From Turbatrix aceti (taxonomy: Eukaryota > Nematoda > Chromadorea > Rhabditida > Panagrolaimidae), in NCBI GenBank assembly GCA_963969345.1, contig OZ017767.1, positions 6,104,739 through 6,168,738 of the forward strand: 64,000 nucleotides of DNA, written 5' to 3'. The position numbers were made by a program, and so were the translations under genes. The notes beneath the pieces were generated by a model. That model worked only from the letters and a program-made list of their open reading frames with translations, did not search any database and was not told where the DNA came from. This document shows, one piece after another, positions 36,196 through 40,763 of this stretch; the stretch's first letter is position 1, and the number at the start of each line of letters is the position of its first letter.

Positions 36196-36654
36196 GCGAG
36201 CCCCTCTGAATAAAGCACCGGCATCCGGAATCTTGAAAAAAAAAACAGTGAGACGCTAATCAAAATGTGTTTTCGCGTCGAGACCCAAATCTAAACAGTT
36301 TTCGCTTCGTATCCCAAATCGAAACATTTTTCGTGTCGGGACCCAAATCGAAATGTTTTTCGCGTCGGGACCCAAATTGAAAAATTTTTCCCTCATCAAA
36401 TTATTTTTCGCGTCGAGACCCTAATCAAATTATTTTTCGCGTCGGGACCTAAATCGAAATTTTCGCGTCAAGACAAATCAAAAATTAAGCAAACTTTATT
36501 TAGGAAACAGACAAAAAAACAAGCGGAGAAAAAAAGGCGCAAACAAACACTGTAGCAAATGATTCTGTCTGCTGCAACGCGGGGATGAATCGTGTTGTGC
36601 CACCGCGGGTTATGAGGATCGATAAAAGTAGGCCAGGAATCCATAATCCCTCTC
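36196..36654. other. Convergent intergenic region with minisatellite
   Basis: It separates the 3' ends of the MSP-like gene and cct-5. Poly(A) signals on both strands (36207 plus; TTTATT at about 36495 for the minus gene) flank the minisatellite at 36248-36482. Confidence 0.6.
36248..36482. repeat. Minisatellite, about 7 copies of a 30-36 bp unit
   Basis: Unit resembles TTTTTCGCGTCGGGACCCAA followed by ATCGAAA or ATCAAATTA. CGCGTCGAGACC or CGTGTCGGGACC recurs every 30-36 bp, with copies differing by point changes. Copies towards both ends are more degraded. Confidence 0.85.
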
Positions 36655-39600
36655 TCACATGCCGTAGCTCCTCTCATCGTCGGGAACGCGAACGTCGTCG
36701 ATCTTGAGAATCATGCGGACGACCTGGGTGGCGAGGCAGAGTTGCTGACGCTTGGAAGTCAGCGTCTCGACGACGCCCTGCTCCTTCATGTCGTTGGTGC
36801 CGATGTTGAGTCCATCGACGCCGAGGGCGGGGTTATTTTGCTCAACCTGGGCCGACTTGAGCTGGGTGACGGTATCGATGGGGGAGAAGCCGCTGTTTTG
36901 GGCCAGGGCCATCGGGATGGCGTCCAGGGCGTCGGAGAAGGCGCGGAACGCGTACTGCTCGAGGCCGGTGATCTTGTCGGCTTCCTTGGCAACCGCGATG
37001 GAGCACGCGAGCTCCGAAGAGCCGCCGCCGTAGACGACTTTGTCGTCGCGGACGAGATTGCGCACAACGCACATTGCGTCGTGGAGGGCGCGTTTGGTTT
37101 CTTCAATCACCTGGAAAATATTTTTGTTGATAAAATCGACTCGCAAAAATTTAAAACAACAATTTAAAAATTTTTTTAAATGAAAACCTACGGCATGGGT
37201 GGAAGCGCGGATGAAGACAGTGACAGCCCGAGTGTTGGGGCAATTCTCGATGACCAGGTAATGATCGCGACCGGTGCCAAACTGTAGTTCACGAACTTTC
37301 CCGGACTGACCGAGTTTCTCGGGAGTGAGTTCGCTGAAGCGCGGCACAATGCGGCCCTTCGTGGCCATGGCGATGAGCTCGATATCGGGTCCACCGACCC
37401 ATCTCACCGCCGGGAGCTTGTGGTGGTATAGGAGGTGGTTGGCCTCGTCATCGAAGCCCCACTGACAGATAGCAAGGTTGGCACCGCTGTCTTTGACCTG
37501 CTTGATCATGGTCTCGAAGGTCGTGCGCTCGTACTGTCTGAGGTCTTCGTAGTCCTTCTGCGAGGTGATTTCGAGCTTGACTGCGTTCTTCGGCTTCGGT
37601 GGCTCGAAGGGACAGGTGAGAATCGCGATCTTGGCATCCTCGATGACGCGTGGCATTTGAGGGTGGGACATGGTCTTGTCGATGACCACGCCCTTGATGA
37701 GGACGGTGTCCTCGAGGCGGCCACCGGGCTTGCCGATGACTTTGATGAGGTCAAAGTTGACGTCTCGTAGATCGTTGTCGGCGACTGCGAGCACGGCATC
37801 GACAGCGATTTCTGCCAATTGCTCGAGGCATCGGTTCACGCTGAAAAAACGCAAAAAAATAATTTTTAAAAGCCTGTCTGTGACAGGATTTTGGACCGGC
37901 GACCCCGTGAAAAAACAACTTCAAATGTTTTTAACCAAAGTTGTAGGCACCCCTATAGGATTGTTAAAAAAAATTATGAAAAATTTTTCAGATGCCGGAT
38001 TCTGGAGATTTGGCTTCTGAAATGTTTTTTCGTTTTGAATTTTCAACTCAATTCTTAATAGAAGCAAAAATCTGAATTTAATTTGACAAAGGTATTTTGG
38101 CACGCGGAATCGATTCCCGCACTCAGATTCCACAAAAAACATCTGTCCGCCCGGCAATTATGTTTTTTTTGTTTTTGTATTCATATTTTCAGCCAAAACA
38201 TGCCTATTTCGTCCGAGGGGGAGGGCAAGGCATACCCTATCTTGAAGCCCGTTTTTTTTGGCATCGGATGAGCAAAAACACAAAAAATTCTATGTCGGTC
38301 CCGGTGACCAAAACACGGAAAAACCCGTCAAAACGGTCAAAAAACGACTACGCGCTCACTACGCGAAAAAATCCCGACACGAAGCGCGTGCGCATTTTTG
38401 CGCGTTTTTTTGAAAGTGATGTCTATTTGGCGTCATTTTTCGGGTATTCATAATTTTTTCTTAGTTTTGCCATTCACCACTCTTAACAAACAAAGTCCGA
38501 CAATTCAAATGCATTTTTGACCTAATTGATAACTCATCAGAGCGCTGCGCTACAACGCAGAGAAAATGCTATTGCATGAAAAAACCGTTGTGCCTTTCTC
38601 AAAACTGGGAAAGTTATTCCGTATTTTGGCATTCTACGCACCTTCTACACACTCATTGATTAAGTTTGAGCCCATGGTGGTGATACTTGTATCGATCACT
38701 TTGGTGATATAACGGTTTACAATTTGCCCCTTTTGACGTGTGTCGTCGGGACCACCGGAGTACAGCGATAATGCCCCAAATGCATTTTATTGTACTCATT
38801 TGGCCCCGCGGGGCTCAAATAACAAAAAAAAGTATGTGGCAATAGTGATATTGAAGTTCTCGTCGACGTACTCCTTTTGCTTCATAAAAACCTAGGGTAA
38901 CACTATGCACGCGTGCGCGCAGAGTGTTCCTTGTTCTACCATAGGGTATCCTTGCCTTTAGGCATCATTGATTAGTGATATATGGCTAGTTTTTTTTGTT
39001 ATTTGAGCCCCGCGGGGCCAAATGAGTACAATAAAATGCATTTGGGGCATTATCGCTGTACTCCGGTGGTCCCGACGACACACGTCAAAAGGGGCAAATT
39101 GTAAACCGTTATATCACCAAAGTGATCGATACAAGTATCACCACCATGGGCTCAAACTTAATCAATGAGTGTGTAGAAGGTGCGTAGAATGCCAAAATAC
39201 GGAATAACTTTCCCAGTTTTGAGAAAGGCACAACGGTTTTTTCATGCAATAGCATTTTCTCTGCGTTGTAGCGCAGCGCTCTGATGAGTTATCAATTAGG
39301 TCAAAAATGCATTTGAATTGTCGGACTTTGTTTGTTAAGAGTGGTGAATGGCAAAACTAAGAAAAAATTATGAATACCCGAAAAATGACGCCAAATAGAC
39401 ATCACTTTCAAAAAAACGCGCAAAAATGCGCACGCGCTTCGTGTCGGGATTTTTTCGCGTAGTGCGCGCTGCGCGCATCGCGATGCGCACGCGGCGACTT
39501 TTGGTGTGCTTTGCGTCCTCGTTGTTTTTTAACGACAATTTTGACGGGTTTTTCCTTGTTTTGGTCACCGGGACCGACATAGAATTTTTTGTGTTTTTGC

Positions 39601-40763
39601 TCATCCGATGCCAAAAAAAACGGGCTTCAAGATAGGGTATGCCTTGCCCTCCCCCTCGGACGAAATAGGCATGTTTTGGCGGAAAATATGAAAACAAAAA
39701 CAAAAAAACAATAATTGCCAGGCGGACAGATGTTTTTTGTGGAATCTGAGTGCGGGAATCGATTCCTCGTGCCAAAATACCTTTGTCAAATTAAATTCAG
39801 ATTTTTGCTTCTATTAAGAATTGAGTTGAAAATTCAAAACGAAAAAACATTTCAGAAGCCAAATCTCCAGAATCCGGCATCTGAAAAATTTTTCATAATT
39901 TTTTTTAACAATCCTATAGGGGTGCCTACAACTTTGGTTAAAAACATTTGAAGTTGTTTTTTCACGGGGTCGCACTCTCCACCTTAATCCAAAATCCTGT
40001 CACAGACTCCCTCTTAACAATTCATTTCCAAAAATTATGGCCCAAAATGGGCCTAAAAAACTAAAAAAAGGACAAAAAACAAAAATTTAGATTTTTTGCA
40101 TCGTTCGCATTTTTTCTCGGTAAATTTCAGCACTTTTTACACAAAAAAAGTTGTTAGATGACAAAAAAAATTGAAAACGTACATTTTCGATCCAAGCGAG
40201 GTGACAGCAGATTTGATGAGTTCATCCTTCTGCTCCAGTGGGAAACGGTTAGCAATGGTGTTCAACACCTCGACCGACTTCTTGCACGCCAGTTCAAAGC
40301 CGTCCGAAATCTTTGACGGGTGAATGCCCTTGTTGAGCAGGAGTTCAGCCTGTTCGAGCAGTGCGCCCGCGAGAACTGAAAAAAAAGAACAATAAAAACA
40401 TTGACACAAAAAAAATAAAAACAAAAACCAACCAATAACACCGGTAGTGCCGTCGCCAATCTCATCATCCTGAGCAGTGGAGAGCTCAACCATGAGCTTG
40501 GCAATGCGATGATCGACGTCCATGGATTTCATGATGGTGGCGCCGTCGTTGGTGATCGTAACGTCGCCATCGGGACTGACAAGCATCTTGTCCAGACCCC
40601 GTGGGCCCAGCGAGGTCTTCATCGTCGCGGCAACTGCACGAGCGGCGAGAATGTGAGACTTCAACGCCTCGATACCGGTCTGGCGACGGCGTTCGTGTTC
40701 CTCAATGACGAGGAAAGGTACGCCAGTATCGTCAAAAACAAGATGTCCAGTTGAATCCGCCAT
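36655..40763 (-). CDS. cct-5: Chaperonin TCP-1/CCT subunit epsilon (CCT5)
   Basis: Four exons: 40763-40433, 40375-40183, 37840-37192 and 37110-36655, giving 542 residues in phase, against 541 in human CCT5. Group II chaperonin motifs are intact: TSLGPRG (50-56), NDGATI (72-77), GDGTTG (103-108) for ATP binding and hydrolysis, then the apical domain. [13 protein letters not shown] and [13 protein letters not shown] are diagnostic of the epsilon subunit. YGGGSSE and [14 protein letters not shown] (NPALGVDG) lie in the C-terminal equatorial part. The protein is one of eight subunits of the cytosolic CCT ring that folds actin and tubulin. Intron 3 (37841-40182, 2342 bp) contains a 2.1-kb foldback element; all other introns are small. 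The ATG follows an acceptor-like GTCTTCAG, 293 bp after the CENP-X-like stop. Confidence 0.96.
37876..40007. mobile_element. 2.1-kb foldback element (long inverted repeat) in cct-5 intron 3
   Basis: Left arm 37876-38831 (956 bp) and right arm 38990-40007 (1018 bp) are near-identical reverse complements around a 158-bp loop. The tip is GTCTGTGACAGG on both sides. The arms differ mainly by two gaps: about 14 bp near the outer end and about 51 bp near 38335/39480. Each arm has a matching open frame (38097-38453 plus, 39368-39775 minus). No clear target-site duplication was seen at the outer ends. No transposase is encoded. It lies between acceptor 37841 and donor 40182, so the whole element would be transcribed in the cct-5 pre-mRNA. 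Confidence 0.9.

Follow-up and report, generated by a model that had tools for sequence, protein, structure and literature searches.

Non-autonomous mobile elements with long inverted repeats are already known from nematodes, including a case of nesting: in the published account of the Mutator/foldback element Tm1 of Meloidogyne, one inverted-repeat element (936 bp, with a 7-bp target-site duplication, TSD) lies within another (PMC3169594, section cited here). Inverted repeats are also frequent in nematode introns. According to the sections of PMC4282642 used here, introns >1 kb contain an inverted repeat in about 25% of the expressed genes of Caenorhabditis elegans, and inverted repeats and/or transposons were present in >98% of the edited regions detected there. 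We report here on a stretch of 64,000 nucleotides of the nematode Turbatrix aceti (assembly GCA_963969345.1, contig OZ017767.1, positions 6,104,739 to 6,168,738; hereafter the window), where an intron of the CCT epsilon chaperonin gene cct-5 contains a giant hairpin (37866-40017). We conclude with high confidence that this hairpin results from two independent insertions of non-autonomous palindromic miniature inverted-repeat transposable elements (MITEs), an inner element B being nested in an outer element A. Their parts are as follows (window positions).

37866..37869, no strand: left TTAA TSD of A, placed by the span of A and by the TTAA at both ends of other copies
37870..38356, plus strand: left part of palindromic MITE A, interrupted by B; starts 5'-AAGCCTGTCTGTGACAGGATTTTGGA, its last 6 bases being the left TSD copy of B
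38351..38356, no strand: left copy of the B target duplication, CGCGCT
38357..39464, plus strand: palindromic MITE B, 1108 bp, termini CACTACGCGAAAAAATCCCGACACGAA
38357..38834, plus strand: left arm of B
38835..38986, no strand: loop of B, 152 nt
38987..39464, minus strand: right arm of B, reverse complement of the left arm
39465..39470, no strand: right copy of the B target duplication, CGCGCT
39471..40013, minus strand: right part of A (most of the loop, then the right arm), ends ...TCCAAAATCCTGTCACAGACTCCCTC-3'
40014..40017, no strand: right TTAA TSD of A

The preliminary description had seen a mobile hairpin of two reverse-complement arms of about 1 kb around a 158-bp loop. The hairpin is real and its arms are inverted, as indicated by the arm pairs and by a strong stem in RNAfold, but the loop measures 152 nt and the arms are not continuous. 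Indeed, the inner pair (38352-38834 and 38987-39469) comprises 483 nt with 100% reported identity and 152 nt between the arms, and the outer pair (37899-38352 and 39520-39973) comprises 454 nt with 97% identity; between the two, the right side carries about 50 bp (39470-39519) missing from the left, which correspond to the loop of A. A is thus almost wholly a palindrome, with a GC-rich loop of about 50 bp. The absence of a transposase was borne out, four open reading frames (ORFs) of the hairpin arms having no Pfam domain above the cut-off.

The genome (59.9 Mb, 28 contigs) was searched for both elements with a procedure that scores the best candidates only, so that all family copy counts are lower bounds. 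The left arm retrieved two nearly disjoint sets of matches, at about query positions 1-481 and 480-960, and separate searches with each part of the hairpin led to two different dispersed palindromic families, with matches on five contigs of 11.4-12.7 Mb (C1, C2, C4, C5, and C6). The hairpin parts are therefore multicopy, and no single-copy, non-inverted source locus emerged. Family A yielded 74 matches at 38 or more loci, including those of a subfamily, A2, about 80-82% alike; 34 loci had two or more arm matches. In the window, A is bounded by TTAA followed by AAGCCTGTCTGTGACAGGATTTTGGA on the left and by TCCAAAATCCTGTCACAGACTCCCTC followed by TTAA on the right, with minor variants at the 11 other loci read, and TTAA was found at both ends in 10/10 other copies tested. 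For family B, 14 terminal matches were obtained in each orientation; they resolve into 12 pairs with a spacing of about 1.1 kb and four single ends. The termini of B are CACTACGCGAAAAAATCCC and its 5' ends CACTACGCG; copies measure 1096-1110 bp (n = 12), and 11 of the 12 full copies are flanked by an exact 6-bp TSD. Both A and B are thus short, non-coding, of uniform size and present in many copies, with terminal inverted repeats (TIRs) and a TSD of constant length, as is typical of MITEs.

The order of the two insertions can be read from empty copies of A, which measure 1034-1039 bp, TTAA sites included, with 1038 bp in 7/10. Removing B and one copy of CGCGCT from the window leaves an A of exactly 1038 bp, the commonest empty length. 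Moreover, the unoccupied target, ACTACGCGCTGCGCGCATC, is contiguous in 8/10 empty copies, the interior of the other two (L027 and L028) being inverted. Because both length and intact target sequence match, B was inserted second, at the edge of the ~50-bp loop of A. In our reading, A (1038 bp with its TTAA sites) first entered a TTAA of the cct-5 intron, at a distance of 25 bp from its 3' splice site, and the unrelated 1108-bp B, with its CACTACGCG ends and 6-bp TSD, later entered the edge of the GC-rich loop. As B is itself a palindrome and occupies a nearly central position within another, their stems stack into what looks like one unbroken ~1-kb stem. Both elements would have been mobilized in trans, in a cut-and-paste manner, by transposases encoded elsewhere, given their TIRs, constant TSD lengths and lack of recognized coding capacity.

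The copy of B in the window differs from the L003 copy by one mismatch and from the L004 copy by one gap, whereas the other nine copies compared show 4 to 53 mismatches plus gaps. Because its nearest copies differ by single changes, the insertion of B is recent, although the homogenized arms of this family lower the mismatch count and its age should be read with caution. High arm identity had been taken as a sign of recent insertion or gene conversion. A recent insertion holds for B, and strong homogenization of the arms is seen in B only; identity by itself shows neither, and the arm differences of A are common to other copies.

The host gene lies on the minus strand and, according to our own gene model based on translation and homology, has a coding sequence of four exons. 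The closest CCT5 matches of normal length are metagenome records (82%), Panagrellus redivivus (81%) and Panagrolaimus sp. JU765 (80%), so that this protein places the host among nematodes close to Panagrolaimidae, nearest to Panagrellus/Panagrolaimus.

37841..40182, minus strand: host intron of cct-5, 2342 bp, from splice signals and translation
40183..40375, minus strand: cct-5 exon upstream of the host intron (coding exon 2 in our reading), from translation and homology
37192..37840, minus strand: cct-5 exon downstream of the host intron (coding exon 3 in our reading), from translation and homology

The intron starts with the donor GTACGT at 40182 and its acceptor, TTTTTTCAG, ends at 37841; these sites flank 37866-40017, so that the hairpin lies wholly within the intron, as first described. 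In this model, the intron is the second coding intron of cct-5 rather than the third, although a 5' untranslated intron may precede it. Without A and B it would measure about 194 bp. The 25 bp between A and the 3' splice site leave the TTTTTTCAG tract intact. Directly downstream of cct-5, at 36270-36475, a degenerate short tandem-like repeat with the unit TTTTCGCGTCGGGACCCAAATCGAAA was noticed by eye.

Folding of the 2152-nt segment on the transcript strand gave -1791.9 kcal/mol in RNAfold, compared to -543 to -568 for mononucleotide shuffles (n = 3). Among the predicted pairs, 984/1011 are roughly symmetric about the centre, and the longest uninterrupted helices reach 475, 206, and 124 bp. 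In agreement with the preliminary description, nascent cct-5 RNA could in principle fold into a long intronic double-stranded RNA (dsRNA) stem, and processing of this predicted stem into small interfering RNA (siRNA) or by ADAR is plausible. A load of intronic inverted repeats is tolerated in a nematode, as these are common among expressed genes of C. elegans and edited there (PMC4282642, in part). It could be argued that the stem was adopted as a functional intronic source of dsRNA or siRNA, or as a regulator of cct-5 splicing, given the strong predicted fold adjoining the 3' splice site and the frequency and editing of such repeats in C. elegans (same sections). However, B hardly differs from copies at other loci and seems too young for visible selection, and nesting alone distinguishes the window copy from the others examined. 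We thus regard adoption as improbable and a functional role of the RNA hairpin as a hypothesis only.

Even less probable is an origin as one 2.1-kb hairpin transposon, or as intron sequence duplicated de novo in inverted orientation, with gene conversion keeping the arms identical. The near-perfect continuous stem speaks for such an origin, but its two portions come from separate dispersed families, whose TSDs are of unequal length (TTAA and 6 bp), A and B coincide at the window locus only among 38 A-type loci, and outside the TTAA sites there is partial pairing over just about 10 AT-rich bases. The preliminary description of one hairpin element with no obvious TSD thus fails on both counts, as it is contradicted by the TTAA and CGCGCT duplications and by the empty-site length. 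Sequencing errors are frequent in long perfect palindromes, yet an assembly artefact, such as a fold-back read or a collapsed palindrome, is scarcely credible in view of the two independent correct TSDs with a matching empty-site length, the similar copies on five large contigs and the arm differences preserved in family A and in a further family, C, of the same assembly.

Some observations do weigh against the nesting of two MITEs. The full B copy L007 has no matching TSD, nor have 2/9 copies of C, which is related to B; the insertion of A is described from one strain, with no orthologous empty site from a close relative; and the autonomous partner of neither element was found in what was searched.

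Several copies of A, and two elements with ends like those of A, deserve mention in their own right. In L027 (G000:C1:1307470-1308507) and L028 (G000:C6:9653514-9654551), the asymmetric ends enclose a loop and interior in inverted orientation, which suggests that the two arms of a single copy have recombined. L024 and L025, about 6.8 kb apart on G000:C5 (near 3889.7 kb and 3882.9 kb), have identical flanks on both sides as far as shown and represent a local duplication taking in element A. L056 (G000:C1:9637500-9641200) and L058 (G000:C1:26450-28000) are long palindromic elements with interiors unrelated or barely related to A. They carry its terminal motif, with TTAA at the ends that were read (right end of L056, both ends of L058), and belong to a broader set of TTAA hairpin families present in the genome.

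The families differ in the way their arms evolve. Had a palindrome arisen once before its copies spread, the resemblance between the two arms of one copy should not exceed that between same-side arms taken from different copies. Family A roughly fits this expectation: its arms are 96.8% identical within a copy and 97.3% between same-side arms of different copies, and the nearest neighbour of 21/22 arms is the same-side arm of another copy (10 fetched loci and the window; L025 was left out, its flanks being identical to those of L024). Family C, 73-83% identical to B over matching parts, ends in CACTA / CACTAAGG and shows an exact 6-bp TSD in 7/9 full-length copies with both ends found. It fits the expectation better than A, with 91.9% identity within copies, 98.8% between same-side arms and 32 arm-fixed differences (9/10 fetched copies, L067 being without one recognizable end). 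On the contrary, the arms of B are 99.6% identical within a copy and 97.1% between copies (n = 12), and in 32 of the 41 variable gap-free columns at least two alleles each occupy both arms of some copy. When right arms were reassigned among copies, the 18 within-copy mismatches of B compared with a shuffle mean of 146 (0/2000 as low).

A tally of minor alleles points in the same direction. For B, alignment columns 40-469 only were used and L044 was added despite its damaged outer left end. Alleles were shared and always on both arms in 29 cases, private on both arms in 7 (6 in L044), private on one arm in 9, shared on one arm only in 4, and mixed in 4. For A, there were 1 shared and 1 private both-arm alleles, 27 private and 17 shared one-arm alleles, and 17 mixed. 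The contrast is not a sharp one: A has two symmetric-state alleles in 18/60 variable columns, and its within-copy mismatches (160) fall below the shuffle mean of 201 (1/2000 as low), as do those of C (336, mean 346, 0/500 as low). This slight excess of symmetry implies some arm exchange in A and C too. In A2 (5/7 copies, L079 and L081 lacking one end match), no excess of within-copy symmetry was seen (101, mean 99, 319/500 as low).

In A, and even more in C, both similar in size to B, most arm differences were thus inherited from master copies, whereas the pattern in B implies that its arms were repeatedly corrected against each other, either at transposition or while resident. Tentatively, and with more doubt than conviction, we suggest that, as its lineage moves, B is reset to an almost perfect palindrome, so that arms evolve in concert within a copy and copies diverge. 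One arm of each active copy would be rewritten from the other, by hairpin-templated synthesis or by mismatch repair of a folded strand. The titles and abstracts retrieved on arm conversion in palindromic transposons held no description of this pattern, which may be the new part of the present work, although we do not claim that it is unpublished. The outer 133 columns of the B arm alignment are conserved (4/121 gap-free columns variable, compared to 37/333 further in) and overlap a region common to related families; this part may form a putative transposase-binding region.

Altogether, what looked like a giant hairpin proves to be a clean example of a palindromic MITE nested within a second one, and three hairpin families (A, B, and C) of a nematode genome are given boundaries, target duplications and definitions. 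Concerted arms in B and mostly independent arms in the related C raise a testable question, namely whether palindromic transposons are re-copied via a folded intermediate when they move.

PiggyBac elements have 5'-CCY termini with a TTAA TSD, and were rejected for A, which ends in AAGCC, GAGGG and variants. In a search whose pattern included TTAA itself, RR (AA or GA) came next in 60/60 zero-mismatch matches listed, two of them being the window's own ends. Kolobok elements, recorded in nematodes, are separated from piggyBac by a TTAA TSD with 5'-RR termini (PMC9587614, passages cited here). Like A, their non-autonomous members combine a TTAA target duplication with 5'-RR termini (same passages); unlike them, A is nearly all palindrome around its ~50-bp loop and is without a transposase found so far. 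By its ends, A would therefore appear Kolobok-like.

None of the candidate loci read yielded an autonomous partner of A. Profile searches with PF13843 and THAP had no match in the genome, and none in control genomes either, and so carry no information; eight ORFs at seven loci where A-type ends were single or unusually spaced (L055, L056, L058-L062) had no Pfam transposase, no Kolobok profile being among those searched. L055, a 6.6-kb TIR pair on C5, consists of a full A-type element and an A end piece around other sequence, which is probably host gene sequence because an ORF in it matches MBOAT (E 1.6e-5, just under the Pfam cut-off). L056 and L058 are the further palindromic elements with A-like ends mentioned above, L056 adjoining an ORF that encodes a PDZ domain. 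At L059, a single A-like arm is accompanied, 2.4 kb off, by a weak TIR-like motif (5 mismatches allowed), and the two ORFs scanned had no Pfam match. L060 and L062 contain short A end fragments, and L061 contains a complete A2 copy next to an ORF carrying DUF3591.

For B, 17 hAT-domain and 9 MULE matches were found in the genome, none at the listed B termini or linked to A or B ends, a minority of the hAT matches having been read. L057 (G000:C1:11945400-11948850), a 3.28-kb element (3279 bp) with C-type ends, 480-bp inverted arms (89%) and a long interior, was counted apart from the nine full-length C copies. It was rejected as a partner, the two ORFs scanned having no Pfam match and the 6-bp TSD test having failed, though 7 flanking bases match. 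The only hAT pair with readable ends, L063/L064 (G000:C4:104000-108500 and G000:C5:2247000-2251500), is a 2.9-kb element in two copies 99.93% identical, with ends CAGAGTTGTCGAC (CAGAG), 8-9 matching flanking bases and a hAT dimerization domain; it looks recently active. Another hAT-domain match, at G000:C1:1855012-1855248, lies about 2 kb from a copy of A (1857119-1858152), probably by chance. The TSD TTCGAG had raised the idea that B targets tRNA genes, which was abandoned as such a gene was present in 0/12 rejoined sites.

Among described transposons, three share the 6-bp target duplication of B: fungal IS3EU (PMC12730594), hAT6, which appears as a title in the reference list of the same article, and Dada, with 6-7 bp (PMC3706591), each source being drawn on in part. 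IS3EU fits B by its TSD, but the ends given for its fungal members (TAYGG...CCRTA) differ from CACTACGCG. The features of Dada do not fit either: Dada-U6 and Dada-U1 are without TIRs and elements with definable ends sit in small-RNA genes (PMC3706591, same parts), whereas B has long TIRs and no tRNA gene in its 12 rejoined targets. On the side of A, the PALTTAA elements of Caenorhabditis, compared by name and not by sequence, are likewise palindromic TTAA-flanked nematode repeats; one of them, PALTTAA2, is labelled PiggyBac in the cited part of a repeat-domain study (PMC1431705). A literature search with combined terms retrieved no paper on palindromic TTAA inverted-repeat MITEs in nematodes. 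As for nesting, the closest comparison remains Tm1 of Meloidogyne (PMC3169594, section cited above), like A and B a nematode element with long inverted repeats and a published nested case. However, Tm1 has a 9-bp TSD and composite tandem-repeat termini, whereas the TSDs of A and B are 4 and 6 bp, and the locus in cct-5 differs from the Tm1 nested case in that the palindrome B sits at the loop of A.

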